From the NCBI RefSeq assembly GCF_020010925.1, contig NZ_JAGJBZ010000003.1, forward strand, positions 186,001 to 250,000: a stretch of DNA of 64,000 bases. Reading direction: 5' to 3'. This stretch comes from Streptomyces griseiscabiei. GTDB taxonomy: Bacteria; Actinomycetota; Actinomycetes; Streptomycetales; Streptomycetaceae. This document shows positions 1,181 to 16,639 of this stretch, piece by piece (the stretch's first letter is position 1; each line of letters opens with the position of its first letter). The position numbers and the translations under genes were made by a program. The notes below the pieces were generated by a model. It did no database searches, had not been told where the DNA came from, and was given only the letters and a program-made list of their open reading frames with translations.

Positions 1181-3034
1181 ATGCGCAGGCACAGGAGTTT
1201 CGTCGAACTGATGTGTGTGAGGGCGGCCGAGCACGGTGACCGGACCGCCCTGGTCTTCAGCGGGGACCCGCTCCGCGCCGAGGCCGACGAGACCATGACG
1301 TACGGGGAACTCGACCGGGCCGCCCGCCGGGTCGCCGCGCTGTTGCGGGACCGGTTCTCCGTCGGCGACCGGCTGCTGGTGCTGCATCCCTCCGGGCCGG
1401 GGTTCGCGCAGTCCCTGCTGGGGTGCATGTACGCGGGCATGGTCCCGGTGCCCGCGCCGCCGCCCGACGGCCGTCAGCGGCGGCAGGCCGACCGGCTCGC
1501 CGCGATCGCCCGGGACGCGGGAGCGGCCGGCGCCCTGACCGACGTGACGGACCTGGAGGCGCTCAGGTCCTGGGCCGGGGAGCAGGGCCTGCGGGACATG
1601 ACCGTGCTCGCCCCGCACTCCGCCCAAAGCGTTGTGGACGGCGCGAACGGCGAAGGCCTCGTGGACGGGTCGCCCGCGGCGAACCCGTGGCCGTCGCCGC
1701 CGGCCGACCCGCACGCCCTGGCCTTCCTCCAGTACACCTCGGGGTCGACCGCCGACCCCAAGGGCGTCATGGTCGACCACGCCAACCTGCTGGCCAACGC
1801 CGAGATCCTGGCGAAGATCGCGGGCCTGAGCGCCGAAGGACCGGTGGGCGGCTGGCTGCCGCTCTACCACGACTTCGGGCTGATCGGGCTGCTGCTCACG
1901 CCACTCGTCCTCGGCGGTCGCAGTGTGCTGATGCCGCCGACGGCCTTCCTCAAGCGCCCGCACACCTGGCTGACCCTGATCGACCGGCACGGCATCGACT
2001 TCTCCCCCGCCCCGAACTTCGCCTACGACCTGTGCCTCCAGCGGATCACCGACGAGGAGCTGGCCCGGCTGGACCTCTCGCGCTGGCGGTGCGCGGTGAA
2101 CGGCGCGGAGCCCGTCCAGGCCGCCACCGTCGAGGCGTTCACCCGGCGGTTCGCCGCCGCCGGGCTGCGGCCGGAGGCGATGCTCCCCGGCTACGGCATG
2201 GCCGAGACGACCCTGGTCGTCTCCGGTGACCGGCCCGCCCGCCGTGCCGTGATCACCGAGGTGGACCCCGCCGCGTTCGAACGCGGCGAGCTGCTGCCCC
2301 CGGCCCCCGGCGCCCCCGCGCACCGCGTCGTCAGCAGCGGCCCGGCCGAGCACCTCGACGTCCGCATCGTCGACGCCGACGTGGGCCGGACCCTGCCGGA
2401 CGGCCGGGTCGGCGAGATCTGGGTACGCGGCCCGAACGTCGCCCGGGGCTACTGGGGGCGCCCGGCGGAGACCCGGCGCGTCTTCGGCGCCGTCACGCCC
2501 GACGGGGAGAGCGGCTTCCTGCGCACCGGGGACCTCGGGGTCCTGCACGAGGGCGAGCTGTATGTCACGGGCCGCACCAAGGAGTTGATCATCATCCGGG
2601 GCCGCAACCTCTACCCGCAGGACCTGGAGGCGGCGACGCGGGCGGCCCACCCGGCGCTGGAACGCGGCGTCGGGGCGGCCTTCTCGGTCCCGGTGCCCGA
2701 GGAGGAGGTCGTGATCGTCCGCGAGTGCCGGGCCGACCGCCTCGCGCCGGACGAGCTGCCCCGCGTCGCCGCGAGCGTCCGCGACCGGCTCACCCGGGAG
2801 GTCGGGGTGCCCGCCCACAACGTCGTGCTCGTGCCGCCCGGCACGGTGGCACGCACCACCAGCGGCAAGATCCAGCGCCGGCTGCTGCGCCACCGGCTCC
2901 TCGGCGGCGAGCTTCCGATCCTGTACGCGGAACTGTCGCGGGCGGTGCGCGCCCGGCTGGGCGACGGCACGGAGGGCGGCGATACGGAGGGTGGCGGCCC
3001 GAAGAGCGGTGCGGAGGGCGGTGACGCCTCGTGA
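1181..3034 (+). CDS. Fatty-acyl-AMP ligase (FAAL)
   Basis: This adenylating enzyme (617 residues) activates a free fatty acid with ATP and passes the acyl group to a carrier-protein thiol. The P-loop-like motif YTSGSTADPKGV is near residue 185, the YGMAETT motif is in the middle, and the C-terminal hinge reads RTGDLG...YVTGRTKELIIIRGRNLYPQDLE. GRNLYPQDLE together with the N-terminal FVELMCVRAAEH is characteristic of FAALs rather than acyl-CoA ligases. The start is the ATG at 1181, with GGAGG ten bases upstream. The gene overlaps the next one by GTGA. The nearby ACP genes are the likely acceptors. The chain length of the substrate cannot be read from the sequence. Confidence 0.9.
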   Translation: MRRHRSFVELMCVRAAEHGDRTALVFSGDPLRAEADETMTYGELDRAARRVAALLRDRFSVGDRLLVLHPSGPGFAQSLLGCMYAGMVPVPAPPPDGRQRRQADRLAAIARDAGAAGALTDVTDLEALRSWAGEQGLRDMTVLAPHSAQSVVDGANGEGLVDGSPAANPWPSPPADPHALAFLQYTSGSTADPKGVMVDHANLLANAEILAKIAGLSAEGPVGGWLPLYHDFGLIGLLLTPLVLGGRSVLMPPTAFLKRPHTWLTLIDRHGIDFSPAPNFAYDLCLQRITDEELARLDLSRWRCAVNGAEPVQAATVEAFTRRFAAAGLRPEAMLPGYGMAETTLVVSGDRPARRAVITEVDPAAFERGELLPPAPGAPAHRVVSSGPAEHLDVRIVDADVGRTLPDGRVGEIWVRGPNVARGYWGRPAETRRVFGAVTPDGESGFLRTGDLGVLHEGELYVTGRTKELIIIRGRNLYPQDLEAATRAAHPALERGVGAAFSVPVPEEEVVIVRECRADRLAPDELPRVAASVRDRLTREVGVPAHNVVLVPPGTVARTTSGKIQRRLLRHRLLGGELPILYAELSRAVRARLGDGTEGGDTEGGGPKSGAEGGDAS

Positions 3035-5031
3035 CGGCGCCCGGCCCGCTGATCGACACCGGCCGGGTCGACCTCGACGGCTTCGACCGGGCGCTCGGTG
3101 ACCCCGCCGACCCTGCGGCGCCCCTCTCCTTCGCCCGCGGCGCCGAACTGGACCGCGCCGAGCGGTTCCCCGAAGACGGCTGCCGGGAGCTCGACCGGAC
3201 GGGGCTGCCGCGCCTGTATGTGCCGGCCGAGTTCGGCGGGGCGCTGACCCGCTACGACGAACTCGTCGCGGCGCTGCGGGCGGTGGCGCGCCGCGACCTG
3301 ACGGTCGCCATCGCGCACGGCAAGACGTTCCTCGGAGGTGTCTGCGTCTGGCTGGCGGGCAGCCCGGAGCAGGCGCGCGACCTCGGCGCCGACATCGTCG
3401 CCGGGACGCCGGTCGCGTGGGGCCTGACCGAGCCCGGCCACGGCAGCGACCTGCTCGCCGGCGAGATGACCGCGACACCGGAGCCCGGCGCGCCCCGCGC
3501 CCCCGGCGACCCCGCCGCCCCGACCGACGTCGCCGTCGTCGGCGTGTCCACTGCCCTTGGCGACCTCGCTGCCCCGGCCGACCCCGCTGCCCCGGCCGAC
3601 TTTGCCGCCCCGGCTGATCCGGCCGACGTCGCCGTCGTCGGCGTGTCCGCTGCCCTTGGCGACCCCGCTGCCCCGGCCGACCCCGCCGCCCCGACCCACG
3701 TCGCCGCCCCCGGCGGGACCACCGCCCCCGGCGGGACCACCGCCCCCGGCGGGTCCACCGCCCCCGTCGGCTTCCGGGTGCACGGCGAGAAGTGGCCGGT
3801 CAACAACGCCACCCGCGCCCCACTGCTCTGCCTGCTCGTGCGCACCCGGCCCGAGGGCGGGCCGCGCGGCTTCAGCCTGCTGCTGGCCGACAAACGGCGG
3901 CTCCCGGCGGACCGCTGGCGGACCCTGCCCAAGGTGCCCACCCACGGCATCCGGGGCGCCGACATCAGCGGGATCGCGCTGGACGACTGCCCGTTCCCGG
4001 CCGACGCGCTGATCGGCGAGGAGGGCGCCGGGCTGGAGATCGTCCTCAAGGCGCTGCAGCTCACCCGGACCGCCGTGACGGCCCTGTCGCTGGGCGCCGC
4101 CGACCAGGCGGTGCGGCTGGCCGAGGAGTTCGCCGCGCGGCGCGAGCTGTACGGCCGCCGGCTGATCGAACTGCCGCACGTACGCCGGGTGCTCGGGGAG
4201 GCGTACGCGGCGCTCCACGCCGCCGAGATCGTCAGCGTGCTCGCGGCGCGCAGCGTGCATACCCTGCCGCAGGAGATGGCCGTCATCTCCGCGGTGGCCA
4301 AGTCGTACGTCCCCACGCGCGTCGACGAACTGATCGCCGCCTGCGGGGAGTTGCTGGGGGCCCGCGCGTTCCTCGCCGGGGTCCACGAGCACGGCGCGTT
4401 CCAGAAGCTGGAGCGCGACCACCGGGTGGTCGGTGTCTTCGACGGGAGCACCTTCGTCAACCAGCACGTCCTGATCAACCACTTCCCGTTGCTGGCCCGA
4501 GGCCACCGGGAGGGCACCGCCGACGAGGAGGCCGTCCGCCGTACCGCCGATCTGTCGGTCCCGCCGCCCCCGGCCCGGCTCGACCGGCTGAGCCTGCTGG
4601 CGCGCGGCGGCTGCGGCTTCACCCAGAGCCTGCGTGCCGCGAGCGGTGACGTACGTGCGCTGGCGTCCACGGGCCAGGTGCCCGCACGCGTGGCCGAACT
4701 CGCCGAGGAACTGGCCGACGGCTGCGACCGGCTCCACCGCGAGCTGGCGCTGCTCCCGCCCGCCTCCCAGGACGTACCGCCGGAGGCCTTCGCGCTGGCG
4801 CGCCGCTACGAGCACTGCTTCGCGGGTGCCGCCGCCCTGCGGGTGTGGCTGCACAACCGCGCGTCCGGCGGGGACCCGTTGTGGCTGGAGGCGGTCCTCA
4901 CCCACGTACTGCGGTCGGTGCGTCCGCCGGGCCGGCCGGCCGACGCCGACGACGAGGTGTTCGACCGGCTCCTCGACGCCCGCGCGGCCGGCCGCCCCGC
5001 CGCCCCTCCGACCTCGGCGGCCATACCGTGA
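3031..5031 (+). CDS. Acyl-CoA/acyl-ACP dehydrogenase, large form with a repeat insertion
   Basis: This flavoprotein of the acyl-CoA dehydrogenase family (666 residues) is expected to introduce a double bond into an acyl chain. Diagnostic segments are GLTEPGHGSDLLAGEMTA (FAD-binding strand), GEKWPVNNATR, and the C-terminal helices containing RELYGRRLIELPHVR. It has about 100 extra residues rich in Pro, Ala and Gly between EMTA and GFRVHGEKW, encoded by tandem repeats at about 3480-3770. A normal family member runs directly between those strands. The GTG start overlaps the FAAL stop. Paired FAAL and dehydrogenase genes occur in lipopeptide pathways such as ramoplanin and enduracidin, where they make unsaturated acyl starters, so carrier-bound acyl is the likely substrate. 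Confidence 0.88.
   Translation: MTAPGPLIDTGRVDLDGFDRALGDPADPAAPLSFARGAELDRAERFPEDGCRELDRTGLPRLYVPAEFGGALTRYDELVAALRAVARRDLTVAIAHGKTFLGGVCVWLAGSPEQARDLGADIVAGTPVAWGLTEPGHGSDLLAGEMTATPEPGAPRAPGDPAAPTDVAVVGVSTALGDLAAPADPAAPADFAAPADPADVAVVGVSAALGDPAAPADPAAPTHVAAPGGTTAPGGTTAPGGSTAPVGFRVHGEKWPVNNATRAPLLCLLVRTRPEGGPRGFSLLLADKRRLPADRWRTLPKVPTHGIRGADISGIALDDCPFPADALIGEEGAGLEIVLKALQLTRTAVTALSLGAADQAVRLAEEFAARRELYGRRLIELPHVRRVLGEAYAALHAAEIVSVLAARSVHTLPQEMAVISAVAKSYVPTRVDELIAACGELLGARAFLAGVHEHGAFQKLERDHRVVGVFDGSTFVNQHVLINHFPLLARGHREGTADEEAVRRTADLSVPPPPARLDRLSLLARGGCGFTQSLRAASGDVRALASTGQVPARVAELAEELADGCDRLHRELALLPPASQDVPPEAFALARRYEHCFAGAAALRVWLHNRASGGDPLWLEAVLTHVLRSVRPPGRPADADDEVFDRLLDARAAGRPAAPPTSAAIP
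3526..3768 (+). repeat. In-frame minisatellite inside the first acyl-CoA dehydrogenase gene
   Basis: A 99-bp period is visible: GACGTCGCCGTCGTCGGCGT starts at 3526 and again at 3625 with about 70 bases of near identity. It is followed by three 18-bp units of type GGCGGGACCACCGCCCCC ending near 3768. The encoded peptide is low-complexity (VAVVGVSTALGD twice, then Ala-Pro-Gly-Gly-Thr-Thr repeats) and interrupts a conserved beta domain. Confidence 0.85.
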
Positions 5032-6806
5032 CCGACAGGACCGGGGCGAACGACGCCCGCGACACCCGTGACGCCCGCGATGCCGCCATCGACGACCACT
5101 CCGCGGCGGCTGCCCTCGCCGACCTCGAACGCCGGTTCGGCGACCCCTGGGATCCGGGCAATCCGACCGGCCACGCCGCGGTGCTGGCGGCCGACGAGGC
5201 GGGCGAGATGCTCACCGCGGGCGAGCGGCTGCTGGACGGCTACGGGCTGAACGCCGAGTTCGTCCCGCCCGAACTGGGTGGGCGGCTGACCCGGCTCGAC
5301 CACCTCGTCGAGGTGCTGCGGGCGGTCTTCCGCCGCGACCCCTGCCTGGGACTGGGGTACGGAGCCGCCAGTCTGATCCCCGCCGTCAACGTCTGGACCG
5401 CGGGCGACGCCCGGCAGCGCCGGCGGATGGCCGAGGTGCTGCTGGCGGGCGGCCGGGCCGTCTCCGGCTACCACGAGCTGGCGCACGGCAACGACTTCGC
5501 GCGGGCCGCGTTCACGGCGCTGCCCGGCGACGACGGCCGGCTGCGGCTCGACGGGCGCAAGGAAGTGATCGCCAACGCCGGGCGCGCCGAGGCCATGGTG
5601 CTCTTCGCGCGCACCTCGACCGCTCCGGGCAGCCGGAGTCACTCGCAGCTGTTCGTCGAGCAGGCGGACCTCCCCGAGGGCGCGCCGGTCCAGCTGCCGC
5701 GCTTCCCCAGCGCGGGGATGCGCGGGGTCCGGCTCGGCGGGCTGGAGTTCCGGGACTGCCCGATCCCGGCGGACGCGGTGCTCGGGGCGCCCGGCCTCGG
5801 CATGGAGACGGCGCTGCGCTCCTTCCAGGTCACCCGCGTCGCGCTGCCGGCGATGAGCGCGGGCATCCTGGAGACCGGCCTCGACGTCACCGCCCGCTTC
5901 GCGGACGAACGCGTCCTGTACGGGCGGCCGCTGGCCGGGATGCCGTACATCGGCTCGATCCTCGCCGACGCCTTCACCGACCTGCTGATCTGCGACTGCC
6001 TGGCCACCGTGACCGCCCGCTCGGTGCATCTGCTCCCCGGCGAGAGCAGTCTGTACGCCTCGGCCGCCAAGTACTTCGTCGCCACCCTCCTCAGGGACGC
6101 CATGGACGCGCTGTCGCGGGTGCTGGGCGCCCAGTTCTACATCCGGGACGGCGGCTACGGGATCTTCCAGAAGCAGCTGCGCGACCTGGCGCCGGCGGGC
6201 TTCGGCCACACCGCGCGCGTGGCCTGCCTCAGCACGGTGCTCCCGCAACTGCCCCGGCTGGCCCGCAAGGGATGGCTGGACGACACCCAGCCGCCCGCCG
6301 GGGTGTTCCGCCTCGGCGCGGACCTGCCGCCGCTGCCCTTCGAGCGGCTGTCGATCGGCTCGGGCGGGCGCGACCGCCTCAGCGCCTCGCTCACCGCGGC
6401 CCTCGCCTCCCGCGACCTGGACGGCGAGCTGCGCCGCTCGGTGCGCGTCATGGCGGACGAGCAGACCGCCGTACGACGCGCGTGCGCCGAACTGGCCCCC
6501 GGGGATCTCACCGTCGCCGCCCGGCCCGAGGCGCTGCGGCTGGCGGCGCGGTACGCGGCGGTGCTCGCGGCGACCGCCTGTGTGAACGTCTGGCTCCACA
6601 ACCGGGAGCGGCACGAAGCGTTCCTCGGCGACCCCCGCTGGGCGGTCGCGGCACTGGGACGGATCGCCGAACGGGTGGGCCGCGACCCCGGGCAGCGTCC
6701 CCGGCACCTCACCGAACGGCTGTCGGCGGAGGTCCTCTCCCGGCACCGCGACCGCCGTGGCTTCAGCCTGTCGAACCGGAGCCTGCCCGGAGGGCGCCGC
6801 CATTGA
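5028..6806 (+). CDS. Acyl-CoA/acyl-ACP dehydrogenase, second large form
   Basis: This is a second dehydrogenase (592 residues) similar in layout to its upstream neighbour but without the repeat insertion. Visible family segments are YHELAHGNDF, GRKEVIANAGRAEAM (FAD/substrate strands) and RFADERVLYGRPLAGMPY in the C-terminal helical bundle. The GTG start at 5028 overlaps the previous stop by GTGA, so translation is coupled. The reading frame stays open further upstream, but that would run deep into the neighbour. Two consecutive dehydrogenases behind a FAAL suggest stepwise or dimeric desaturation of the carrier-bound acyl chain. The position of the double bond cannot be told. Confidence 0.87.
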   Translation: MTDRTGANDARDTRDARDAAIDDHSAAAALADLERRFGDPWDPGNPTGHAAVLAADEAGEMLTAGERLLDGYGLNAEFVPPELGGRLTRLDHLVEVLRAVFRRDPCLGLGYGAASLIPAVNVWTAGDARQRRRMAEVLLAGGRAVSGYHELAHGNDFARAAFTALPGDDGRLRLDGRKEVIANAGRAEAMVLFARTSTAPGSRSHSQLFVEQADLPEGAPVQLPRFPSAGMRGVRLGGLEFRDCPIPADAVLGAPGLGMETALRSFQVTRVALPAMSAGILETGLDVTARFADERVLYGRPLAGMPYIGSILADAFTDLLICDCLATVTARSVHLLPGESSLYASAAKYFVATLLRDAMDALSRVLGAQFYIRDGGYGIFQKQLRDLAPAGFGHTARVACLSTVLPQLPRLARKGWLDDTQPPAGVFRLGADLPPLPFERLSIGSGGRDRLSASLTAALASRDLDGELRRSVRVMADEQTAVRRACAELAPGDLTVAARPEALRLAARYAAVLAATACVNVWLHNRERHEAFLGDPRWAVAALGRIAERVGRDPGQRPRHLTERLSAEVLSRHRDRRGFSLSNRSLPGGRRH

Positions 6807-6822
6807 GGACAAGGAGCACGGC

Positions 6823-7119
6823 ATGAACACCCCCGAACCCGCCCCGTCGGCCGCGTCGGACACCGAGCTGCGGAGCTGGCTGCGCGCCCGGGTCGCCCAC
6901 TACGCGCAACGCGACGTCGCCGACATCACCACCACCGCCTCGCTGACGGCGTACGGCCTCGACTCGGTCTACGCGCTGGTCCTGTGCGGCGACATCGAGG
7001 ACCACCTCGGGCTGGTCCTGGAGCCGACCGTGGCCTGGGACCACCCGACGATCGACGCGCTGGCGCGGCACCTGGAGGAGATCCTCGCCCAGGCGCCCCC
7101 GTCGGGGGAGAGCCGATGA
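6823..7119 (+). CDS. Acyl carrier protein (first)
   Basis: This 98-residue carrier protein has the attachment motif YGLDSVYAL with Ser48 as the expected phosphopantetheine site, followed by the usual helix II and the VAWDHPTIDALARHL segment of helix III. AAGGAG at 6811-6816 precedes the ATG at 6823. The next gene's ATG overlaps its stop. From its position between the dehydrogenases and a ketosynthase-III-like gene it probably carries the fatty acyl chain supplied by the FAAL and acted on by the dehydrogenases. Confidence 0.9.
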   Translation: MNTPEPAPSAASDTELRSWLRARVAHYAQRDVADITTTASLTAYGLDSVYALVLCGDIEDHLGLVLEPTVAWDHPTIDALARHLEEILAQAPPSGESR

Positions 7120-8048
7120 CCTCGCTGGAGGAGGTGGCGGCCCACCTGCCGTCGGAACGGATACCCATCGAGGAGCTGGGCGGCGAACTGGGCATCAGCG
7201 CCGTGGAGATGAAGGTGTACCGGCGCTACTACGGCCTGGCCGAGGTCCGCCGTGAGCCCGGCGGCACGCTCACCGATCTGCTGCTGGCCGCCGCGGGCCG
7301 GCTCGACGGGCTCCGCGGTGCGGAGGAACGGGTGCGGTACGTCGTCCAGGCGCGGACCATGCCGGTGGTCGTCCCCCATCCGGTCAACCCCGTGCACGAG
7401 GTGCGCGACGCGCTCGGGCTCGGGCACGCCACGGCGTTCGCGGTGACCCACCACGCCTGCGCCTCGGGGCTGCTGGCGGTGGACCTGGTCGGCAAACTGC
7501 TGGCCAGCGACGGTGATCCGGACGCGCTGGCGCTGGTCCTCACCGGTGAGAAGACCTTCACCCTGGCCGCACAGGCGGTGCCGGGTACGGCCGCCACCGG
7601 CGAGGCCGCAGCCGCTGTCCTCGTCGGGATCCGCGACGACCGGGACCGGATGCTGAGCTACGCCGCCCGCACGCACGGCCGTTACTACGAGTGCCAGTCG
7701 CTGGACGACGAACTGGCGGGCGAGTTCCAGCAGATCTACACCGAGGCCCTGGCCGAGGTCATGCTGGCGGCCGTGGCGAAGGCCGGCCTCGGGACGGACG
7801 ACATCGCCATGGTCTTCCCGCACAACGTCAACCGGCTGTCGTGGACGCGGCTCGCCCGGCGTCTCGAACTCCCGCTGGAGCGCGTCTTCCTGGACAACGT
7901 GCCGGTCACCGGGCACTGCTTCTGCGCGGATCCCTTCATCAACTACCGGACCGCCCTCGATCGCGGCCGGCTGCGCCGTGGGGACCGCTATCTGCTCGCC
8001 ACGGTCGGCCTCGGCTCGACCTTCTCGGCGATGCTCTTCGAGCACTGA
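7116..8048 (+). CDS. Ketoacyl-ACP synthase III-like acyltransferase
   Basis: This 310-residue thiolase-fold protein has a nucleophile motif HHACASG (Cys115) and a FPHNVNRLSW motif (His236) as in FabH. The third catalytic position, Asn in FabH (GNTSAAS), is replaced by GHCFCADPF around residues 266-273. That substitution is common in FabH relatives that transfer acyl groups to O or N nucleophiles instead of, or in addition to, decarboxylative condensation. The ATG overlaps the ACP stop. Possible jobs are chain extension of an acyl-ACP or acyl transfer between carriers, and the sequence does not decide. A thiolase-like partner without a clear nucleophile is encoded at 11213-12142. Confidence 0.85.
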   Translation: MTSLEEVAAHLPSERIPIEELGGELGISAVEMKVYRRYYGLAEVRREPGGTLTDLLLAAAGRLDGLRGAEERVRYVVQARTMPVVVPHPVNPVHEVRDALGLGHATAFAVTHHACASGLLAVDLVGKLLASDGDPDALALVLTGEKTFTLAAQAVPGTAATGEAAAAVLVGIRDDRDRMLSYAARTHGRYYECQSLDDELAGEFQQIYTEALAEVMLAAVAKAGLGTDDIAMVFPHNVNRLSWTRLARRLELPLERVFLDNVPVTGHCFCADPFINYRTALDRGRLRRGDRYLLATVGLGSTFSAMLFEH

Positions 8049-8049
8049 A

Positions 8050-8139
8050 GGAGCACGGATGAACGGAGCACGGATGAACGGAGCACGGATGAACGGAGCA
8101 CGGGTGACAGGTGCACGGGTGAAAGGTGCGTGGATGAAG
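8050..8139 (+). repeat. 15-bp tandem repeat, each unit with SD-like GGAG and ATG/GTG
   Basis: Six units of 15 bp follow the ketosynthase stop: three of GGAGCACGGATGAAC (8050, 8065, 8080) and three degenerate ones (8095, 8110, 8125). Each carries GGAG or GGTG followed a few bases later by ATG or GTG. The array fills most of the gap between the ketosynthase-III-like and ATP-grasp genes, the largest gap inside the operon. Confidence 0.85.
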
Positions 8140-8157
8140 GGGACTTGGGCGTGGTGA
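8059..8157 (+). CDS. Possible 32-residue pentapeptide-repeat micropeptide
   Basis: Starting at the first repeat ATG with GGAG seven bases upstream, the frame reads three MNGAR units, then VTGAR, VKGAW, MKGTW and AW before a TGA at 8155-8157. The stop lies one base before the GTG start of the ATP-grasp gene. Each unit could itself initiate translation. It may serve only to bring ribosomes to the next gene, or it may be an accident of repeat expansion. No homologue is known to me. Confidence 0.3.
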   Translation: MNGARMNGARMNGARVTGARVKGAWMKGTWAW

Positions 8158-8158
8158 C

Positions 8159-9559: not shown

Positions 9560-10860
9560 CCGCTGAGTTCCAGGTGCAGGGCGTACGGGTGTCGGAGCTG
9601 GCCCGCCGGTACGGCACCCCGCTCTTCGTCTACGACGGGGCCGTGCTGCGGGACCGGTTCCACGGGCTGCGTGACCGGCTGCACCCGGCCATGGAGATCT
9701 TCTACTCGCTCAAGGCCAACCCGAACATCTCGGTCTGCGCGCTGCTGCACTCGTTCGGCGCGGGGGCCGAGGTCTCGTCCCTGGTGGAACTGACGACCGC
9801 GCTGCGGGCCGGTGTGCCGCCGGAACAGGTGATCTTCCTCGGCCCGGGCAAGAGCCGCGAGGAGCTGGCCGCCTGCCTGGACAGCGGGATCCACGCCGTC
9901 GTCTGCGAGTCCCTTCCCGAGGTGGCCCTGGTGGACGAGCTGGCCCGGGACCGGGGTGTGCGGGCGCCGGTCGCGCTGCGCGTCAACCCGCGCTTCTCGG
10001 TCAGACGCGCCGCGCTGGCGATGGGCGGCAAGCCGCGCCAGTTCGGCATCGACGAGGAGGAGCTGTTCGACCTGGCCGCCCGGACCGACCTGGCGAAACG
10101 GTTCCCCGGTGTCGATCTGATGGGGGTGCAGGTGTACATGGGCACACGGATCCTCCATGAGGACGTCATCGTCGAGAACACCGCGCGCATCCTCGATCTG
10201 GCCGAGCGGCTGTCGGCCGCGTTCGACGTCGACCCGCGGATGGTCGACGTGGGCGGCGGTCTGGGCGTCGCCTACTTCGACGGCGAGAGCGACCTTGACG
10301 CCGAGGCGCTGACCGACAGGCTCAACCCCGTCATCGACGCCTTCACGGCCCGGCACCCCGACACCCGGCTGATCATGGAGCTGGGCCGCTATCTCACCGC
10401 CGAGGCCGGCACCTATGTGATGGGCGTCCGCTACACCAAGACCTCGATGGGGGAGCGTTTCGCGGTCGCCGACGGCGGCACCCACCACCACATGGCGGCC
10501 GTGGGCATCGGCTCGTTCGTCAAGCGCAACTTCCCGATGGCCGTGCTCAACCGGCTCGACGAGCCGCCGGCCGAGGAGTGGAACGTCACCGGGCCGCTGT
10601 GCACCCCGGGCGACACGATCGGCCGGAAGGTCCCGCTGCCCCCGGTCCGGCCCGGCGACCTGATCGGCGTGCACCGCTCCGGCGCCTACGGCCCGACCGC
10701 CTCGCCGGGCCTGTTCCTCGGCCACGGCCACCCGGCCGAGGTGCTGGTCCACGAGGGGCGGTGCCACCTGGTCCGGGAACGGGACCACCCCGACGACCTC
10801 CTGCGACGGCAGCGGCTCTTCGACCCGGCCGCGGACCACGAGACCGATGTTTCCCACTGA
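9556..10860 (+). CDS. Fold-III PLP-dependent decarboxylase (diaminopimelate/ornithine decarboxylase family, BtrK-like)
   Basis: This 434-residue enzyme has the PLP lysine in YSLKANPN (Lys53), the phosphate-binding glycine stretch DVGGGLGVAYF, ELGRYLTAEAG, and the active-site cysteine motif GPLCTPGD (Cys349) contributed across the dimer. The helix-2 segment is GVQVYMGTRIL where free-amino-acid decarboxylases of this family have a G-x-H-x-H-I-G-S motif. This is compatible with a modified substrate such as an aminoacyl-ACP. Its immediate neighbours are the ATP-grasp ligase (ATGA overlap) and an ACP. By analogy with BtrK and VinO the substrate is probably a carrier-bound amino acid that becomes an omega-amino acyl thioester. 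Confidence 0.85.
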   Translation: MTAEFQVQGVRVSELARRYGTPLFVYDGAVLRDRFHGLRDRLHPAMEIFYSLKANPNISVCALLHSFGAGAEVSSLVELTTALRAGVPPEQVIFLGPGKSREELAACLDSGIHAVVCESLPEVALVDELARDRGVRAPVALRVNPRFSVRRAALAMGGKPRQFGIDEEELFDLAARTDLAKRFPGVDLMGVQVYMGTRILHEDVIVENTARILDLAERLSAAFDVDPRMVDVGGGLGVAYFDGESDLDAEALTDRLNPVIDAFTARHPDTRLIMELGRYLTAEAGTYVMGVRYTKTSMGERFAVADGGTHHHMAAVGIGSFVKRNFPMAVLNRLDEPPAEEWNVTGPLCTPGDTIGRKVPLPPVRPGDLIGVHRSGAYGPTASPGLFLGHGHPAEVLVHEGRCHLVRERDHPDDLLRRQRLFDPAADHETDVSH

Positions 10861-10885
10861 ACCCCAGGAATGCGAGAGGCCGACG

Positions 10886-11206
10886 ATGGAACACCGCACA
10901 CCGGACGTCCGCACCACCGACCTGTACGGCCGGGCCGTCGCCACGATCACCGGCTCGCTCGCCGAGTCGATGCGGGTCGACGCCGCCACGATCGGTGAGA
11001 ACAGCCGGCTGTTCGACGAACTCGGCCTGGATTCCACGACCGTGCTCGCGCTGTTGATGACGATCGAGGAGGAGATCGGGATGGAGTTCGACACCGACCT
11101 CCTCGAACAGCACCACTTCGAGACCGTGGGGACGCTGGCCGCGTTCGTCCGGGAACAGGCCGACGAACAGGCGGCCGAGCGGGTGGCCGAGCAGGGAGGG
11201 GCCTGA
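10886..11206 (+). CDS. Acyl carrier protein (second, BtrI-like position)
   Basis: This 106-residue carrier protein has the motif ELGLDSTTVLAL (Ser50), an acidic helix II, and a Glu/Ala-rich tail. The start chosen is the ATG at 10886 with GAGAGG upstream. An in-frame ATG at 10847 would overlap the decarboxylase gene. Placed directly after the ATP-grasp and decarboxylase genes, it is the probable carrier for the amino acid, distinct from the first ACP, which follows the fatty acid genes. Confidence 0.88.
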   Translation: MEHRTPDVRTTDLYGRAVATITGSLAESMRVDAATIGENSRLFDELGLDSTTVLALLMTIEEEIGMEFDTDLLEQHHFETVGTLAAFVREQADEQAAERVAEQGGA

Positions 11207-11212
11207 CCGCCG

Positions 11213-12142
11213 ATGTATCTCACCACGTCTCCCGGTGCGGTCGGCGCTGTCGGCACTGTCGGCGCGACAGGCGCGCCCGCGCCCGCCCGGCGGGCACCGC
11301 TGCGCCTGTCGCGGCTGGTCAGCAGGACCTTCTCCGCCGGCCGGCCCTTCCTGCCCGATCCGGTGGGGCCGAGCCTGGCCCGGATGCAGGCCGACCTCGT
11401 ACGCCCGTACCCGGTGGAGTTCCGCCCGGAGGTCCTGGAGCGGGGCACGCGCAACACCTTCGTCGAGATGGCCGAGGAACTGCTCGCCGACCTTCCCCCG
11501 CCCAAGGCCCCCCTGGACCTGGTGCTCGTGGCCCACACCGCCCCGGACGCCGATCCGCGCCGCTCCCTGTCCTGCCGTCTGGCCGATGTGCTGCCCGGCG
11601 ACCCGCTGGCCTTCACCCTCTCGGACCAGGGGACCGCCGCCGCGTTCACGGCCCTGCGGCTGGTCTCGGAGTACGCCGACGCCGACGCCTTCCGGCACGC
11701 CCTGGTGGTCCTGCTCGATCAGCGGACCTTCCCGTACGACACCACGGGGGCCCGTGACGTGCCGCGGGAGGACTGCGCGGTGGCGCTGCTCCTCGGTCTG
11801 GAGGGCCGCGCGGGCGAGCCGGTGACACGGCAACTCGCGGGCGTCGCACCGGACGAGGTCCGCGTGACGCTCGACGCGCTGCTGAACGAGCCGGCCGGCG
11901 GCGCTCCCGGCCGGCCCGTCACCCTCGTCACCGGCGAGGGCCTCGGCGCCGAACCGTTCGGGCCGGGCTTCGACGTGCGTCCCGCGCCGCCGGGCCGCCC
12001 CTGCACCGGCCCCTGGTCGGCCCTGGCCGACGTACTCCCCGAGTTCGCGGAGTCCGGGCCGCGCCGTCTGGTCGTCGCCGACTACGACAGCACGCTGCGT
12101 TACCTGTGCGTCAGCACCCTGGACGTCGAGGAGGGCACATGA
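11213..12142 (+). CDS. Degenerate thiolase/KAS-III-like protein
   Basis: I do not recognise a firm family. The 309-residue protein begins with a Val/Gly/Ala/Thr repeat (VGAVGTVGATGA). A middle segment (NTFVEMAEELLADLPPPKAPLDLVLVAHTAP, then FTLSDQGTAAAFTALRLVSEYADA) has the spacing of the N-terminal half of a thiolase-fold enzyme, with a DQG where the nucleophilic Cys would be expected. It lies six bases after the ACP and overlaps the next gene by ATGA. It could be a structural partner of the KAS-III-like enzyme at 7116-8048. The fold assignment is inference and should be tested by profile comparison. Confidence 0.5.
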   Translation: MYLTTSPGAVGAVGTVGATGAPAPARRAPLRLSRLVSRTFSAGRPFLPDPVGPSLARMQADLVRPYPVEFRPEVLERGTRNTFVEMAEELLADLPPPKAPLDLVLVAHTAPDADPRRSLSCRLADVLPGDPLAFTLSDQGTAAAFTALRLVSEYADADAFRHALVVLLDQRTFPYDTTGARDVPREDCAVALLLGLEGRAGEPVTRQLAGVAPDEVRVTLDALLNEPAGGAPGRPVTLVTGEGLGAEPFGPGFDVRPAPPGRPCTGPWSALADVLPEFAESGPRRLVVADYDSTLRYLCVSTLDVEEGT

Positions 12143-12825
12143 CGGGCCGTACGGCCGCCGACGGCAACGCATGGCCCGGGTACCGGCGGACCGCCCGCCA
12201 CGACGGCCTCGTCCCGGCGCTGACCCTGCTGTGCGAGACCGTCTGCGACGGCGCGCCGCCCCGTGGCCCGGGCGGGCACGTGGTGGCGCCCGCCGGTGTC
12301 ACCGGTGCCGAAGCCGGCGGTGCCGGGTCCGGGGGTACCGGGTCCGGGGGTGCCGTGACGACCCTGAGGGTGGAGGGCGGCACCGTCGTCGCGTGGCGGA
12401 GCCGGGCCGAACCACCGGGTGAGCCCAAGTCCCCTTCTGAGGCATGGGTGTTGGGCCTGACCTGTCTGCGGCTCGGTCTCTCGGAGCGGCTGCTCGACGC
12501 AGTGCTCGCCCATCTCGGGGGCCGGACCGCCGGCGGCGCGAAGCTGCTCCACCAGCAGTTGGTCAAGGGCGGTGTCGCGGAGGCGGTGATGGAGCAGTTG
12601 GAGATCGAGACCATGCTGTCCGGCGCCACGCCGGGCGACCTCGACGACGGCGTCCTCGCCGGCCTGAACGCCCAGATCACCGAGACCGACCGGATGCTGC
12701 TGCGGCTGCTCGGTGCCATGAGCTTCCTGACGGACGGGCCCGGCCAGGCCGCCCGGGTGTCGGAGCTGATCGCCGACGTCTACTTCGGTCCGGCCCACGC
12801 CGGGGAGCACGGGGGAGCGGCATGA
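12139..12825 (+). CDS. Unassigned protein resembling the helical C-terminal domain of acyl-CoA dehydrogenases
   Basis: This is a 228-residue protein overlapping both neighbours (ATGA at each end). Residues about 48-70 are a Gly/Ala/Ser/Thr repeat. The second half (TCLRLGLSERLLDAVLAH, then LLHQQLVKGGVAEAVMEQLE) looks like the first helices of an acyl-CoA dehydrogenase C-terminal domain. The FAD-binding beta domain is missing. Because the next gene is a complete but short dehydrogenase, the pair may form a heteromeric enzyme in which this subunit is catalytically inert. This is an inference from similarity seen by eye. Confidence 0.55.
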   Translation: MTGRTAADGNAWPGYRRTARHDGLVPALTLLCETVCDGAPPRGPGGHVVAPAGVTGAEAGGAGSGGTGSGGAVTTLRVEGGTVVAWRSRAEPPGEPKSPSEAWVLGLTCLRLGLSERLLDAVLAHLGGRTAGGAKLLHQQLVKGGVAEAVMEQLEIETMLSGATPGDLDDGVLAGLNAQITETDRMLLRLLGAMSFLTDGPGQAARVSELIADVYFGPAHAGEHGGAA

Positions 12826-13982
12826 TCGAGCTGGACGACAGGACCCGCGCGATTCAGCGCCGGGCCCGCGCGTGGGCGGGGGAACTCAGGCCTTTCGCGC
12901 TGGAACTCGACCGGGACCCGGACGCCGTCCACCGCCATCTGGACGCGGCGCTCGTGTCGTACCTGTCGAGGATGACGGTACCGCCCGAGTTCAATCCCGA
13001 CCCGGTGGTCGTCGACGGGCATCGCTTCTACGGGACCGGGACCCTGGAGCGGGTCGTCGTCGCCGAGGAGGCGGCGGTCGGCGACACCGGCATGCTGCTG
13101 GCGTCGCCGGGACCGCTGATGGCGGGCGTGCTGGTCGACGTCCTGGGCGACGAGCGGCAGAGGGCGTGGTTCTACCGCCGGATCATGGAGAAGCCCACGT
13201 GGACCTTCTTCGCGCTGACCGAGCCGGACCGCGGCTCGGACGCGGGGGCCATGGACACCACGCTCACCCCGGACGGCGACCGGCACTTCGTGCTCCGGGG
13301 GGCCAAGCACCACATCGGCAACGCGGCCCGCGCCGACCTGGGCGTCGTCTTCGCCCGCACCCGGCCGGGGCCGCTCGGTGTGACCGCGGTCCTCGTCGAG
13401 ACCTCGGCCGCCGGGTTCGCCGCCGACACCCTGGAGACCATCGGGCTGCGCGGTCTGCGCCTCGCCGCCGTCACCCTCGACGACGTGCGGGTGCCCGCCG
13501 ACCAGGTGCTCGGCAGACATCTGCGGCCCACCCAGCGGGGCATGTGGAGCGCGGTGCAGGGGCTCAACCGCCTCCGCCCCGGCGTCGCCGCGGTCGGCCT
13601 GGGCATCGCGCGGGCCGCGTACGAGTACGTCCTGGAGAACCGGCGCACCCCGAGCGCGGTCGAGCGCGGCCGACTCGACCGTCTCGGTCTGCGTCTGACG
13701 GCGCTCCGGCAGCTCGTCTGGAGGTCGGCGATCGCCGTGGACGACAAGGACCCGTCGGCCGGTTACCTGGCGTCGGCGGCGAAGGCCCGCGCGTCGCGTC
13801 TCGCCGAGGAGGCGACACTCGCGGCGCTCGGCTTCTTCGGCCCCGGAGCCCGGCTGGACCACCCCCTGCTGGACAAGCTCGCGCGGGACGCCCGGGGCGT
13901 GGAGTTCATGGAGGGCACCGGCAACATCCAGAAGCTCAACCTGTTCAGCGGCCTGGTCCAGGGCGGTCTCCACCGTGACTGA
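12822..13982 (+). CDS. Acyl-CoA dehydrogenase (third complete copy)
   Basis: This 386-residue flavoprotein is of the normal family length. Motifs are FFALTEPDRGSDAGAM (FAD/substrate strand), GAKHHIGNAARADLG, and the C-terminal GVEFMEGTGNIQKLNLF, which matches the region after the catalytic-base loop. The ATG overlaps the previous stop. It is more like classic short-chain dehydrogenases than the two ~600-residue enzymes at the front of the operon, so it may act on a different carrier-bound intermediate, for example the amino acyl side. Confidence 0.85.
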   Translation: MIELDDRTRAIQRRARAWAGELRPFALELDRDPDAVHRHLDAALVSYLSRMTVPPEFNPDPVVVDGHRFYGTGTLERVVVAEEAAVGDTGMLLASPGPLMAGVLVDVLGDERQRAWFYRRIMEKPTWTFFALTEPDRGSDAGAMDTTLTPDGDRHFVLRGAKHHIGNAARADLGVVFARTRPGPLGVTAVLVETSAAGFAADTLETIGLRGLRLAAVTLDDVRVPADQVLGRHLRPTQRGMWSAVQGLNRLRPGVAAVGLGIARAAYEYVLENRRTPSAVERGRLDRLGLRLTALRQLVWRSAIAVDDKDPSAGYLASAAKARASRLAEEATLAALGFFGPGARLDHPLLDKLARDARGVEFMEGTGNIQKLNLFSGLVQGGLHRD

Positions 13983-14055
13983 CTCCGCCGTGACCGACAC
14001 CGGCCTCGTGGTGGTGGCCCGCCACCCGGACGCGGACCGGGTGGCGCCCCTATGA
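13975..14055 (+). CDS. Possible 26-codon relay ORF between dehydrogenase and PPTase genes
   Basis: A GTG at 13975, eight bases before the end of the dehydrogenase gene, opens a 26-codon frame beginning VTDSAVTDTGLVVVAR. It ends at TGA 14053-14055, overlapping the next ATG (14052) as ATGA. The operon thus stays continuously coupled. It may be a translational relay or the remnant of a deleted gene. There is no independent evidence for a stable peptide. Confidence 0.3.
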   Translation: MTDSAVTDTGLVVVARHPDADRVAPL

Positions 14056-14816
14056 GCGGCGCCGCGTCGGACCGCCCTCGACCGGACGAGCCCGAGCCCG
14101 AGCCGAAGCCAGAGCCAAAGCCCGAGCCCGAGCCCGAGGTGGACGTCTGGACGGTGCCGCTGGACGGGTCGCCGGCCACGGTGGCGGCGCTGGCCGGTCT
14201 GCTGTCGCCGTGTGAGGCCGAGCGCGGCGGTCGCTGCCGTTTCGCGGCCGACCGCAGACGCTTCGTCGTCGCGCACGCGGCACTGCGGCTGATCCTGGCG
14301 GACCGTCTCGACGTCCCTCCGGAGGAGGTGCGTCTGCGGCGCGGACGGCATGGCAAACCACGGCTCGCGGGCGGCTCCGATCTGCGGTTCAACCTGTCCC
14401 ACTCCGGTGATCTCGCTCTGGTGGCGGTGACCCGGTACGACGAGGTCGGGGTCGATGTGGATCGGCTGCGGCCGGGCCTGCCGGTCGAGCCGCTCGCCGA
14501 GCGCTTCTTCCCCGCGTCCGAGGCCCGCTTCGTGGCCGAGGCCGCCGGGCCCACGGAACGCGCCGGACGGTTCCTGCGGCTGTGGACCCGCAAGGAAGCC
14601 GTGGTCAAGGCCGCCGGCGGACGCCTCGTCCAGGGCCTGGGCCTGGCGGTGTGCGGCGCGGACGGTGTCGTCCGCGATCCGTCCGGGCAATTGCGGGGCG
14701 CCTGGTCGGTACTCGATCTGCCGGTGCCGGACGGCCACCGGGCGGCGCTGGCCGTCGCGGGGCCGACGGCCCCCAGGATCTCGGTCAGGCGGGCCGACCC
14801 GGGGAGGGCGCGGTGA
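14052..14816 (+). CDS. Sfp-type 4'-phosphopantetheinyl transferase
   Basis: This 254-residue enzyme transfers phosphopantetheine from CoA to carrier-protein serines, here most likely the two ACPs of the operon. Motifs are KPRLAGG..LRFNLSHSGD, VGVDVDRL (metal-binding Asp) and LRLWTRKEAVVKA (Glu/Lys of the last motif). Residues 12-30 are an alternating Pro/Glu/Lys stretch (PEPEPKPEPKPEPEPE) encoded by a hexanucleotide-like repeat, which is not part of the fold. A dedicated PPTase in the operon supports a self-contained carrier-protein pathway. Confidence 0.9.
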   Translation: MSGAASDRPRPDEPEPEPKPEPKPEPEPEVDVWTVPLDGSPATVAALAGLLSPCEAERGGRCRFAADRRRFVVAHAALRLILADRLDVPPEEVRLRRGRHGKPRLAGGSDLRFNLSHSGDLALVAVTRYDEVGVDVDRLRPGLPVEPLAERFFPASEARFVAEAAGPTERAGRFLRLWTRKEAVVKAAGGRLVQGLGLAVCGADGVVRDPSGQLRGAWSVLDLPVPDGHRAALAVAGPTAPRISVRRADPGRAR

Positions 14817-14838
14817 CATTCCGGATCAGGGGTGGGAA

Positions 14839-16554
14839 ATGAGCACGGACCGGCGGACGCGTCAGTTCATGGATTTCTCCGGAGCGGGCTCCGGAACCTA
14901 CGACCTGACCTGGAGCCAGAAACAGGTCTGCTCATGGATGGAGCAAGCGGCCCCGCACATAGCGAACATGAACCTGGCCGGACTGATCGAGGTCGGCGGG
15001 GGAATATCGGTCGACGACGTCATAGCGGCCCTGCGAGTCGTCGTCGAGCGCCATGAAGCCCTGCGGACACGCGTACATCTGGACCCCACGGGCACGTATC
15101 GCCAGGTCGTGCATTCCGGCGGACGCCTTCCCGTCGATGTCCGGGAGTGCCTCACCGACGATGAAGCGGAAGCGGAAGCGGAACTCGCGGAAATCAAGTC
15201 GCTCCCCTTCACTTCCGTGGAATGGCCCTTGCGTGTGTCCGTTCTCGTCTCCGCGGGGGAAGTCGTGAAGATCGCGGTGTGCGTCTCGCACATCGCGACG
15301 GACGGCTGGGGCATGGGCGTGCTGCACGGCGAGTTGACCGGTCTTCTCTCGCGGGACGCCGGGGCGAGGAAGGCCCTCCTGGAGAAGCCGGTGCGGCAGC
15401 CGCGGGAGCAGGCGGCCTGGGAGCGGACCCACGGCGACTCGGCGACGCGTCGCGCGGAGATCTTCTCCGCCGGGCAGCTGAAGCACTTCCCCAACCAGAG
15501 ATTCCCGCTGCCCCGCCGGGCGCCGGAGTCGCCGCGCTTCCCCGAGATCATGATGGAGTCCAGCGCCTCCGCCGTGGCCGTCGCACGCCTCGCCGAAGAC
15601 GTTCAGGTGACCCCCCACACCGTGGTCGTGGGGGCGATATCGGTCCTGCTGAGTGCACTGAGCCGTAGCGACCGGGCCACCTTCCGCATCTTCTGCGCGA
15701 ACCGCCTCGACAAGGCCACCCAGTCGTCGCTGGGCAGCTTCTACCAAGTGGTGCCGGTGAGCGTCGAGGTGGGCGACCTGCCGTTCCGTGAAGTGGTCAG
15801 GACCGCCTGGAAAAAGACGATGGGCGCCTATCTCCTCGGCCCCGGCGACCCGGTCCGGCTCGACGCGCTCGCGGAGGCGGTGGTCCGGGAACGCGGCGTG
15901 AAACCCGACCTTGAATGCTTCGTGAATCTGCACAACCTCACCTCACCGGCCGCCCTGGAGGCGGCGTGCGGCGTCGGTCCGGGGGTGCGGGAGGCCACCA
16001 GGACATGGAGGAGGGGCGGGAACGAGATATGGGAGCCGGGGAAGTTCTACCTCGACGTGTGGAACGTCGCGGAAAAGCTGGTGGTCTCCCTGTGGGGGGA
16101 CACCGAACTCTTCCCCTCGGATGCCCTTGCGGACGTCCTTGCCTCGCTGGAGGAAATCCTGGTGCGGGGCGCCGACGACAGCGAGCTGGGCGCGGCTGAA
16201 CTGATCCGGTCGGTCCGCCGCCTCCCCGGCGCTCCCGTGCGGGGCGGCCTGGAGTACGTCGACCCATGCTGGGTGGACCTCGCCGAGGTGCGGCAGGCCA
16301 TGGCCGAGTGCCTTTCCCCGCACGCCATCGAGGTGGCTCTGGAGCCCGGGGCCGATCCCTCCGGGGCGAGCATCGTCGCGTACCTGGACCTGGGCGGCAG
16401 GAACCTCACCCCCACGGAGATCCATCGGCTCGTCGTCGCCGGCCTGCGTGGCCGCCGGTTCGTCAGGGCCCCGCACCGGTACGTGATCCGCGACCGGTCC
16501 CCGGACGGTCCGGCTTCGCCCGAGGAGCACCCGAAGGACGAGCGGCGGTCCTAG
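14839..16554 (+). CDS. Free-standing condensation-domain protein
   Basis: This 571-residue protein of the NRPS condensation superfamily stands alone, without adenylation or carrier domains. The HHxxxDG motif appears as SHIATDG (residues 150-156), so the catalytic second His and the structural Asp remain while the first His is Ser. The N-terminus has YDLTWSQKQVCSWMEQ (C1-like motif) and the centre has NRLDKATQSSLGSFYQVVPVSV (C5-like). GGGTGG precedes the ATG. It is the last gene of the operon and the best candidate for joining the fatty acyl chain on one ACP to an amine on the other. A C-terminal ~100-residue extension of unknown role follows the domain. Confidence 0.85.
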   Translation: MSTDRRTRQFMDFSGAGSGTYDLTWSQKQVCSWMEQAAPHIANMNLAGLIEVGGGISVDDVIAALRVVVERHEALRTRVHLDPTGTYRQVVHSGGRLPVDVRECLTDDEAEAEAELAEIKSLPFTSVEWPLRVSVLVSAGEVVKIAVCVSHIATDGWGMGVLHGELTGLLSRDAGARKALLEKPVRQPREQAAWERTHGDSATRRAEIFSAGQLKHFPNQRFPLPRRAPESPRFPEIMMESSASAVAVARLAEDVQVTPHTVVVGAISVLLSALSRSDRATFRIFCANRLDKATQSSLGSFYQVVPVSVEVGDLPFREVVRTAWKKTMGAYLLGPGDPVRLDALAEAVVRERGVKPDLECFVNLHNLTSPAALEAACGVGPGVREATRTWRRGGNEIWEPGKFYLDVWNVAEKLVVSLWGDTELFPSDALADVLASLEEILVRGADDSELGAAELIRSVRRLPGAPVRGGLEYVDPCWVDLAEVRQAMAECLSPHAIEVALEPGADPSGASIVAYLDLGGRNLTPTEIHRLVVAGLRGRRFVRAPHRYVIRDRSPDGPASPEEHPKDERRS

Positions 16555-16607: not shown

Positions 16608-16639
16608 ATCGGTGGCAATAGTGTCGGAGGATGTTGGAC

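Follow-up and report, generated by a model that had tools for sequence, protein, structure and literature searches.

A recurrent actinobacterial carrier-protein operon that probably makes an unsaturated N-acyl-β-aminoacyl thioester

The described pathways closest to the locus reported here form acylated β-alanine or dehydro-β-alanine (Dba) units. For bolagladin of Burkholderia gladioli (bol), N-acyl-Dba formation has been proposed or shown to involve an aspartate-loading enzyme, the decarboxylase BolN, the β-ketoacyl-acyl carrier protein synthase III (KAS III) proteins BolM/BolP and the acyl-CoA dehydrogenase (ACAD) BolQ; BolN resembles BtrK, β-alanine feeding fails to rescue its loss, BolM/BolP are proposed to carry out N-acylation and deletion of BolQ yields β-alanine analogues (PMC7756342). 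For AFC-BC11, also from Burkholderia (afc), AfcP decarboxylates carrier-bound aspartate in vitro, and aspartate loading, on-carrier decarboxylation and amide formation by the KAS-III-like AfcL have been reconstituted (PMC12186527). Olenamidonin A contains a Dba unit, and OleH, a 3-oxoacyl-acyl carrier protein synthase and AutS homologue, may join various acyl groups to DHA-ACP (PMC11204786); Dba is also mentioned for solanimycin (PMC10204066). Here, we describe a 12-gene block that runs from a fatty acyl-AMP ligase (FAAL) gene to a phosphopantetheinyl transferase (PPTase) gene in a 64-kb stretch of the 10.6-Mb genome of Streptomyces griseiscabiei (the window, G000:C3:186001-250000). We think it fairly likely that this operon makes an unsaturated N-acyl-β-aminoacyl thioester, which is probably converted to an enamide.

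Thirteen genes, all on the + strand, extend from 1181 (the FAAL start) to 16554 (the end of a free-standing condensation (C) protein, gene 13; Table 1). Six junctions are 4-nt overlaps and the remaining gaps measure 6–110 nt, the widest being 110 nt between the KAS3 and ATP-grasp genes and 69 nt between the ACAD3 and PPTase genes. Gene families were assigned by Pfam and NCBIfam profile searches, which identified the FAAL, three ACADs, two PP-binding proteins, a KAS-III C-terminal domain, a PreATP-grasp protein, a fold-III decarboxylase, the PPTase and a Condensation domain; these results bear out the gene set that a first-pass annotation, made from the DNA sequence alone, had placed in a single run on this strand. 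Two further proteins, KASp and ACADp, gave no Pfam family match. The FAAL is the sole AMP-binding match in the window (E ≤ 1e-30; 65 matches across the genome) and the C protein is the sole Condensation match (29 across the genome). The earlier view that carrier-protein lines for a fatty acid and an amino acid meet here, with neither a nonribosomal peptide synthetase (NRPS) nor a polyketide synthase alongside, is supported.

From the gene content, gene order, co-occurrence, residue conservation, predicted folds and cassette-NRPS linkage that we observed, we infer every substrate and reaction of the following pathway. The FAAL would load a fatty acid on the first acyl carrier protein (ACP1), where the ACAD1/ACAD2 pair would introduce one or more double bonds. 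Aspartate would be attached to ACP2 through its side-chain carboxyl by the ATP-grasp ligase, and removal of its α-carboxyl by the BtrK-type decarboxylase would yield β-alanyl-ACP2. KAS3/KASp would accept the acyl group on Cys115 of KAS3 and acylate the amine, so that an amide forms in place of a C–C bond, and ACAD3 together with ACADp would oxidize the β-alanyl unit to Dba, before or after acylation. The PPTase would activate both ACPs, and either the C protein or an enzyme encoded elsewhere may serve for release. By analogy, the likely product is an unsaturated N-acyl-(dehydro)-β-alanyl thioester, and the bolagladin and AFC-BC11 studies support this pathway logic. The unsaturated N-acylated ω-amino acid foreseen by the first-pass annotation is thus retained as likely and narrowed to a probable (dehydro-)β-alanine.

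Table 1. Genes of the operon and the adjoining MMPL gene: predicted function, position in the window, strand and basis of assignment
Feature	Position	Strand	Basis
FAAL, fatty acyl-AMP ligase loading fatty acid on ACP1 (predicted)	1181..3034	+	Pfam AMP-binding 8.4e-73; fatty acyl-AMP ligase models among best NCBIfam matches, all under cut-off
ACAD1, large ACAD-like protein, probable acyl-ACP1 desaturase, Glu to Asp	3031..5031	+	Pfam; FDG motif 19/19
ACAD2, large ACAD-like protein without usual catalytic acid, probable ACAD1 partner	5028..6806	+	Pfam; acidic residue 0/19 at that column
ACP1, fatty-line acyl carrier protein	6823..7119	+	PP-binding; best NCBIfam match first ACP of Pks13, under cut-off; LDSV motif
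KAS3, KAS-III-like acyltransferase (predicted), catalytic half of pair; Cys115, His236, His267, Asp272	7116..8048	+	ACP_syn_III_C; residue counts
PreATP-grasp/ATP-grasp ligase, probably loading aspartate via β-carboxyl on ACP2	8159..9559	+	PF18604 5.7e-15
BtrK-type fold-III pyridoxal-phosphate (PLP) decarboxylase of aminoacyl-ACP	9556..10860	+	Pfam; best solved structures BtrK 7ru7, 2j66
ACP2, amino-acid-line carrier protein	10886..11206	+	PP-binding 4.5e-9; nearest NCBIfam AsbD, under cut-off; LDST motif
KASp, KAS-III-fold partner, Thr in place of KAS3 catalytic Cys (weak profile alignment)	11213..12142	+	no Pfam; predicted structure, Foldseek
ACADp, small ACAD-like subunit without flavin adenine dinucleotide and catalytic parts	12139..12825	+	no Pfam; predicted structure, Foldseek
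ACAD3, short-chain-type ACAD, probable N-acyl-β-alanyl-ACP2 desaturase	12822..13982	+	best solved structures butyryl/short-chain-type ACADs; MEGT base 17/17
PPTase, activating carrier proteins (predicted)	14052..14816	+	ACPS and AASDHPPT_N; HetI-like, under cut-off
Free-standing C protein, possible release enzyme, membership unsure	14839..16554	+	PF00668 1.4e-21 (2.3e-21 for longer open reading frame)
MMPL transporter gene, 3′ part; adjacent, link not supported by conservation	18..863	+	PF03176; full gene about L009:12761-14863

Compared by description, the bolagladin pathway shares with the window a BtrK-like decarboxylase, a freestanding ACP, N-acylation by KAS III and desaturation by an ACAD, but it uses the VinN-type adenylating BolO instead of an ATP-grasp ligase, a citrate-primed acyl chain and an NRPS. 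AFC-BC11 likewise combines a FAAL, a freestanding carrier, a PLP decarboxylase acting on the aspartyl carrier and a KAS-III-like amide former, with C domains unneeded; it differs in its adenylation (A)-domain protein AfcQ, its β-alanine trimer, acylation by the FAAL and its single carrier protein. In the autucedine, olenamidonin and enamidonin group, a KAS-III-type synthase joins the acyl group to ACP-bound Dba, and relatives of the window's cassette adjoin NRPSs with matching codes, but the window lacks an NRPS and has FAAL-ACAD1-ACAD2-ACP1 in front (aut was compared by description only). Relative to the published Dba pathways, the A domain is replaced by the ATP-grasp ligase, the single KAS III by the KAS3/KASp pair and the single ACAD by ACAD3 with ACADp. 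What is unusual in the window is the ATP-grasp entry, the paired KAS, the split ACAD and the lack of an NRPS; known enamide lipopeptide pathways account for most of the logic of the set. In the open-access literature, as distinct from subscription papers such as the autucedine paper, we found no description of this enzyme combination, in agreement with the earlier statement that no described pathway with this exact set was known to its author.

Two further systems invite comparison. In butirosin biosynthesis, the ATP-grasp ligase BtrJ works with BtrK, and glutamate is converted to γ-aminobutyrate (GABA); there is no fatty line, KAS or ACAD. The window shares with BtrI/BtrJ/BtrK an ATP-grasp ligase, a carrier protein and a fold-III decarboxylase acting on an aminoacyl-ACP. 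PqsBC, which makes a quinolone, consists of paired KAS-III-fold subunits, one of them without a catalytic Cys; the window differs in having His for the FabH Asn and aminoacyl-ACP genes as partners.

To define the distribution of the cassette, one genome per species was scanned with KAS3, for which 1078 of 7996 scored candidates were homologues at E ≤ 1e-10, and the best 80 of 189 confirmed stretches were taken as 79 loci reaching at most 10 kb either side. Gene presence was scored by tblastn with hand-set bit thresholds, and open reading frames (ORFs) were called with a simple GC-frame caller that gives rough starts and merges or splits some genes (e.g., L029, L045). KASp is present beside KAS3 in 73 of the 79 loci, the decarboxylase in 56, the ATP-grasp ligase in 52 and the latter two together in 49. 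The seven-gene core (KAS3, ATP-grasp, decarboxylase, ACP2, KASp, ACADp and ACAD3) is complete in 39/79 loci and the full FAAL-to-ACAD3 set in 18/79, from Streptomyces, Actinomadura, Microbispora, Streptosporangium, Nonomuraea, Actinoplanes, Paractinoplanes, Micromonospora, Glycomyces and Nocardiopsis; the four closest relatives (L018–L021) keep FAAL to PPTase at 72–91% identity. Since the same gene order recurs across actinobacterial genera, the block is not a chance assembly. A C protein lies inside 8 of the 18 full loci.

In the amino-acid line, ACP2 is encoded next to the decarboxylase, an arrangement of a freestanding carrier with a BtrK/VinO-type PLP decarboxylase. Among solved structures, BtrK is by far the best match of the decarboxylase (312 bits; the next structure scores 179). 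The ATP-grasp gene, which is found in 28/392 genomes of the genus including this one, is accompanied by the decarboxylase gene in 49 of its 52 loci. Because related cassettes adjoin enamidonin-type NRPS genes and the decarboxylase is BtrK-like, this line probably gives (dehydro-)β-alanine, and by the same analogy to NRPS-linked relatives the ATP-grasp ligase probably loads aspartate through its side chain.

NRPS genes adjoin the cassette in six loci (L041, L047, L050, L072, L079 and L088); in L041 an NRPS end lies at the locus edge, and the 63,226-base contig carries an A domain about 1 kb beyond the locus. ACADp and ACAD3 are present in L041, L047, L050 and L079 and absent from L072 and L088. 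L050 and L088, whose cassette genes are 39–68% identical to those of the window, and L079, with a different NRPS, follow the cassette with an ornithine-cyclodeaminase-family gene (SbnB-type in L088, by Pfam match), a gene that we take to be SbnA-like and NRPSs; the second adenylation code of L079 was set aside. Read by eye, the L088 adenylation codes are DIWEVTAD twice, then DITQFGLI and DAAVIACV, and those of L050 are DIWEATAD, DIWEPTAD, DILQVGYI and DAW?AALV (? being one unread position of a Phe-like code); presumably, these specify diaminopropionate (Dap) or diaminobutyrate (Dab), Dap/Dab again, Gly and a Phe-like residue. In the cassette-linked NRPS, the first carrier site is followed by a condensation/epimerization-type motif, which precedes the next condensation motif, and a thioesterase-type motif comes last. 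The adenylation codes fit the backbone of enamidonin and autucedine, products that carry Dba. AMP-binding and Condensation searches found no NRPS for such a Dap-Dap-Gly-Phe peptide in the window.

The amide-forming role is assigned to KAS3 with its partner. Active-site motifs of the enzyme families guided all residue calls. Across 81 KAS3 sequences (the window and 80 ORFs >250 aa), Cys115, His267 and Asp272, five residues past His267, are invariant and His236 is present in 80/81. In the alignment, His267 occupies the position of the FabH Asn, which is thus replaced in 81/81, as expected of a KAS-III-like acyltransferase without a FabH-type triad; AfcL has been described with Cys/His/Asp (PMC12186527). 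The KAS3 and KASp sequences show barely any relationship when their profiles are compared (probability 6.5%, E 0.0056), and in this weak alignment Cys115 stands opposite a Thr of KASp. Structures of KASp and ACADp were predicted with AlphaFold from aligned relatives. The KASp model has a KAS-III fold (pLDDT 89, pTM 0.88), with AbyA1, ChlB3, FabH and PqsBC among its Foldseek matches. This predicted fold, together with the co-occurrence of the two genes, likens the pair to PqsBC and makes it a putative heterodimer.

Several other KAS3/KASp arrangements were seen. At L017:4746-14683, KAS3-ACP-KASp-C lies with a class-II aminoacyl-tRNA-synthetase-like protein, an AurF-type oxygenase, a methyltransferase and two PPTase-family genes, and the KAS pair may be working there alongside a different amino-acid loader. 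The S. griseiscabiei genome holds a second, distant pair (L015:11391-13219, G000:C2) that adjoins carboxyltransferase, ketosynthase-like and NDP-hexose 2,3-dehydratase genes. A KASp-like part also occurs inside ORFs of ~640–680 aa (L078:10179-12110, L082:10220-12151, L090:4549-6597), where it is possibly fused to another domain.

For the second pair, the ACADp model is an ACAD-type C-terminal helical bundle (pTM 0.86); Foldseek matched it to a short-chain ACAD (3e-4) and the Fic32-33 complex (1e-3), with TM at most 0.49 among the matches shown. The partial-looking ACAD relative and thiolase-like partner of the first-pass annotation thus find support in predicted folds. ACADp is present in 48/79 loci and always with ACAD3 (48/48), while ACAD3 stands without ACADp in one. 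ACAD3 keeps the catalytic Glu (MEGT) in 17/17 sequences and so has an intact catalytic base. The two NRPS-linked loci without these genes, L088 and L072, offer a natural experiment on the role of the ACAD pair in enamide formation, L088 having the full enamidonin-type NRPS code.

In the fatty-acyl module, residues were counted, as for ACAD3, in the window and in ORFs above length limits from most full-block loci, plus L033 and L040. ACAD1 has Asp in place of the catalytic Glu and the full-length ACAD2 has no acid at that position, each in 19/19 sequences, so that calling the three ACADs complete is right for their length and overstates their catalysis. All 20 loci with ACAD1 also hold ACAD2 and the FAAL, and FAAL-ACAD1-ACAD2-ACP1 would make an unsaturated acyl thioester. 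ACAD2 homologues (E ≤ 1e-60) occur in 152/392 genomes of the genus, including this one, which has a second copy (C1:1319374-1321041, 52% identity) flanked by an AMP-binding match (C1:1323383-1324564) on one side and by NRPS C domains (C1:1305333-1318920) on the other, a placement as expected of an acyl-starter module. Judged by their coordinates, ATP-grasp and ACAD2 genes lie ≤1.4 kb apart in at least four genomes among the matches listed (G000, G545, G546 and G563). Since the FAAL/ACAD half is common without the cassette and the ATP-grasp gene is rarer, the window joins a general unsaturated-acyl starter module to an amino-acid cassette. The NRPS locus with the second ACAD2 homologue and the AMP-binding gene upstream (G000:C1:1304229-1324564) is likely a lipopeptide cluster in its own right.

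Could the same genes make something else? One possibility, which we consider unlikely, is that the block supplies an N-acyl-Dba unit to an NRPS encoded elsewhere, so that the product is an ordinary enamide lipopeptide. The six NRPS-linked cassettes would fit such a role, as would the NRPS loci on contigs 1, 2, 3 and 6 of this genome, but the block has its own PPTase, and in tblastn searches with two L088 NRPSs none of the 18 full-block loci, which reach at most 10 kb either side, gave an NRPS-type match above 75 bits beyond the FAAL and C proteins. These two proteins were the best matches, at ≤75 bits; one further match of 47 bits lay at the edge of L021, and L029 gave none at all. A GABA route, in which the ATP-grasp ligase would load glutamate, as BtrJ does, and the decarboxylase would form GABA-ACP2 on the way to N-acyl-GABA or a 4-aminocrotonyl derivative, is distinctly unlikely. 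The excellence of the BtrK match speaks for it, since 7ru7 is named L-glutamyl-[BtrI acyl-carrier protein] decarboxylase, but the L050 and L088 cassettes adjoin enamidonin-type NRPSs, whose products carry a three-carbon unit, and such a decarboxylase acts on aspartyl-ACP in the AFC-BC11 pathway, with the same proposed for bolagladin.

It is also conceivable, if improbable, that the C protein rather than the KAS pair N-acylates the aminoacyl-ACP, leaving KAS3/KASp to shuttle acyl groups. Besides the eight full loci that contain a C protein, five of the other ten have one just outside, on the same contig (L023, L024, L030, L031 and L032). The conserved element is nevertheless KAS3/KASp: the fetched loci of the four closest relatives contain no C protein (and no MMPL), the L019 genome has no match to the window C protein at E ≤ 1e-15, and the C protein of the full-block locus L042 has Lys for the catalytic His. 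Very improbable, in our judgment, is a PqsBC-like condensation of the acyl-ACP with another thioester through a C–C bond, giving a ketone or heterocycle. The partner arrangement recalls PqsBC, but His replaces the FabH Asn in all KAS3 sequences, which disfavors ordinary decarboxylative condensation; the conserved neighboring genes make an aminoacyl-ACP, and the described KAS III proteins of Dba pathways are assigned acyl transfer to amines. The derived ketone suggested by the first-pass annotation is therefore set aside.

Several points weigh against the aspartate-to-enamide pathway that we favor. BtrK acts on glutamyl-ACP, and aspartate is a putative substrate of the ATP-grasp ligase, assigned by analogy. 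ACAD2 lacks a canonical base, and in AFC-BC11 the FAAL itself, not the KAS III, carries out N-acylation (PMC12186527). KAS3 and KASp occur without the ligase and decarboxylase in 19/79 loci, so the pair is not tied to aspartate and serves other amino donors too. Of four genomes searched, those of L088 and L072 have no ACAD3 homologue (E ≤ 1e-40); ACADp/ACAD3 are thus not always needed and the enamide step is not universal. These two would need another Dba enzyme, or would make β-alanine forms. Finally, the window C protein falls outside the group of cassette-linked C proteins.

A more far-reaching proposal, which we put forward tentatively, is that the 12 genes encode an entire NRPS-free route to small actinobacterial lipo-enamides of a new class (unsaturated N-acyl-dehydro-β-alanine derivatives), built on an aspartate:ACP ligase of the ATP-grasp type, a KAS-III heterodimer acting as amide synthase and an ACAD of two subunits, and that 11 MMPL-linked cassettes whose loci lack both FAAL and NRPS represent a second NRPS-free form. 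If the pathway that we favor is right, a widely distributed cassette would gain concrete, testable chemistry, in which a paired KAS-III protein makes the amide and a split ACAD the enamide, with no adenylation or NRPS module involved. It would also direct attention to uncharacterized enamide lipids in many actinomycetes and provide a compact system for how KAS-III folds turned from C–C to C–N bond formation.

The C protein was dropped as a fixed part of the operon, in which it had earlier been counted as a secure member. Its motif, SHIATDG, keeps the second His, Asp and Gly of HHxxxDG and loses the first His. Its nearest solved sequence is 4znm, a C-domain type II peptide synthetase that we take to be SgcC5. 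The S. spongiae genome (L020) encodes a 79% identical C protein on a different contig, at its end. A 36-row tree (row L003_nrpsC ignored; L111 and the C fragments of L026, L029 and L045, which are short or split, left out) joins 12 C proteins with 85/72 support. Ten of these come from full-block loci, one is that of L036 and one is encoded in the L022 genome on a separate short contig. The window C protein is not among them and pairs weakly (91/54) with one from the L021 genome. Given this placement and the missing C genes at L018–L021, it may be a recent or unrelated neighbor. An ANL C-terminal subdomain in its last ~115 residues was also considered and rejected, with no Pfam match at E ≤ 1. 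Behind it, 76 nt away on the same strand, lies a Fe/Mn superoxide dismutase gene (16631-17281) with no match in loci L018–L021.

The MMPL gene ends 317 nt ahead of the FAAL gene and is not conserved with the block. Its product is 27–31% identical to cassette-following MMPLs, versus 45% and 42% to two paralogues in the same genome, and the earlier view of it as the exporter of the cluster was dropped. Elsewhere, 13 cassettes lacking a FAAL by bit threshold are followed by an MMPL of their own, 66–98% identical to the L046 copy. Eleven of these loci gave no NRPS match in tblastn with the two L088 NRPSs, the exceptions being L041 and L047, and look like the second NRPS-free form of the pathway (L046:7645-19919, L044, L052, L057, L058, L060, L063, L064, L066, L073 and L084). 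The L046 cassette lies directly behind a formyltransferase gene and an AICARFT/IMPCHase gene (purN/purH-like).

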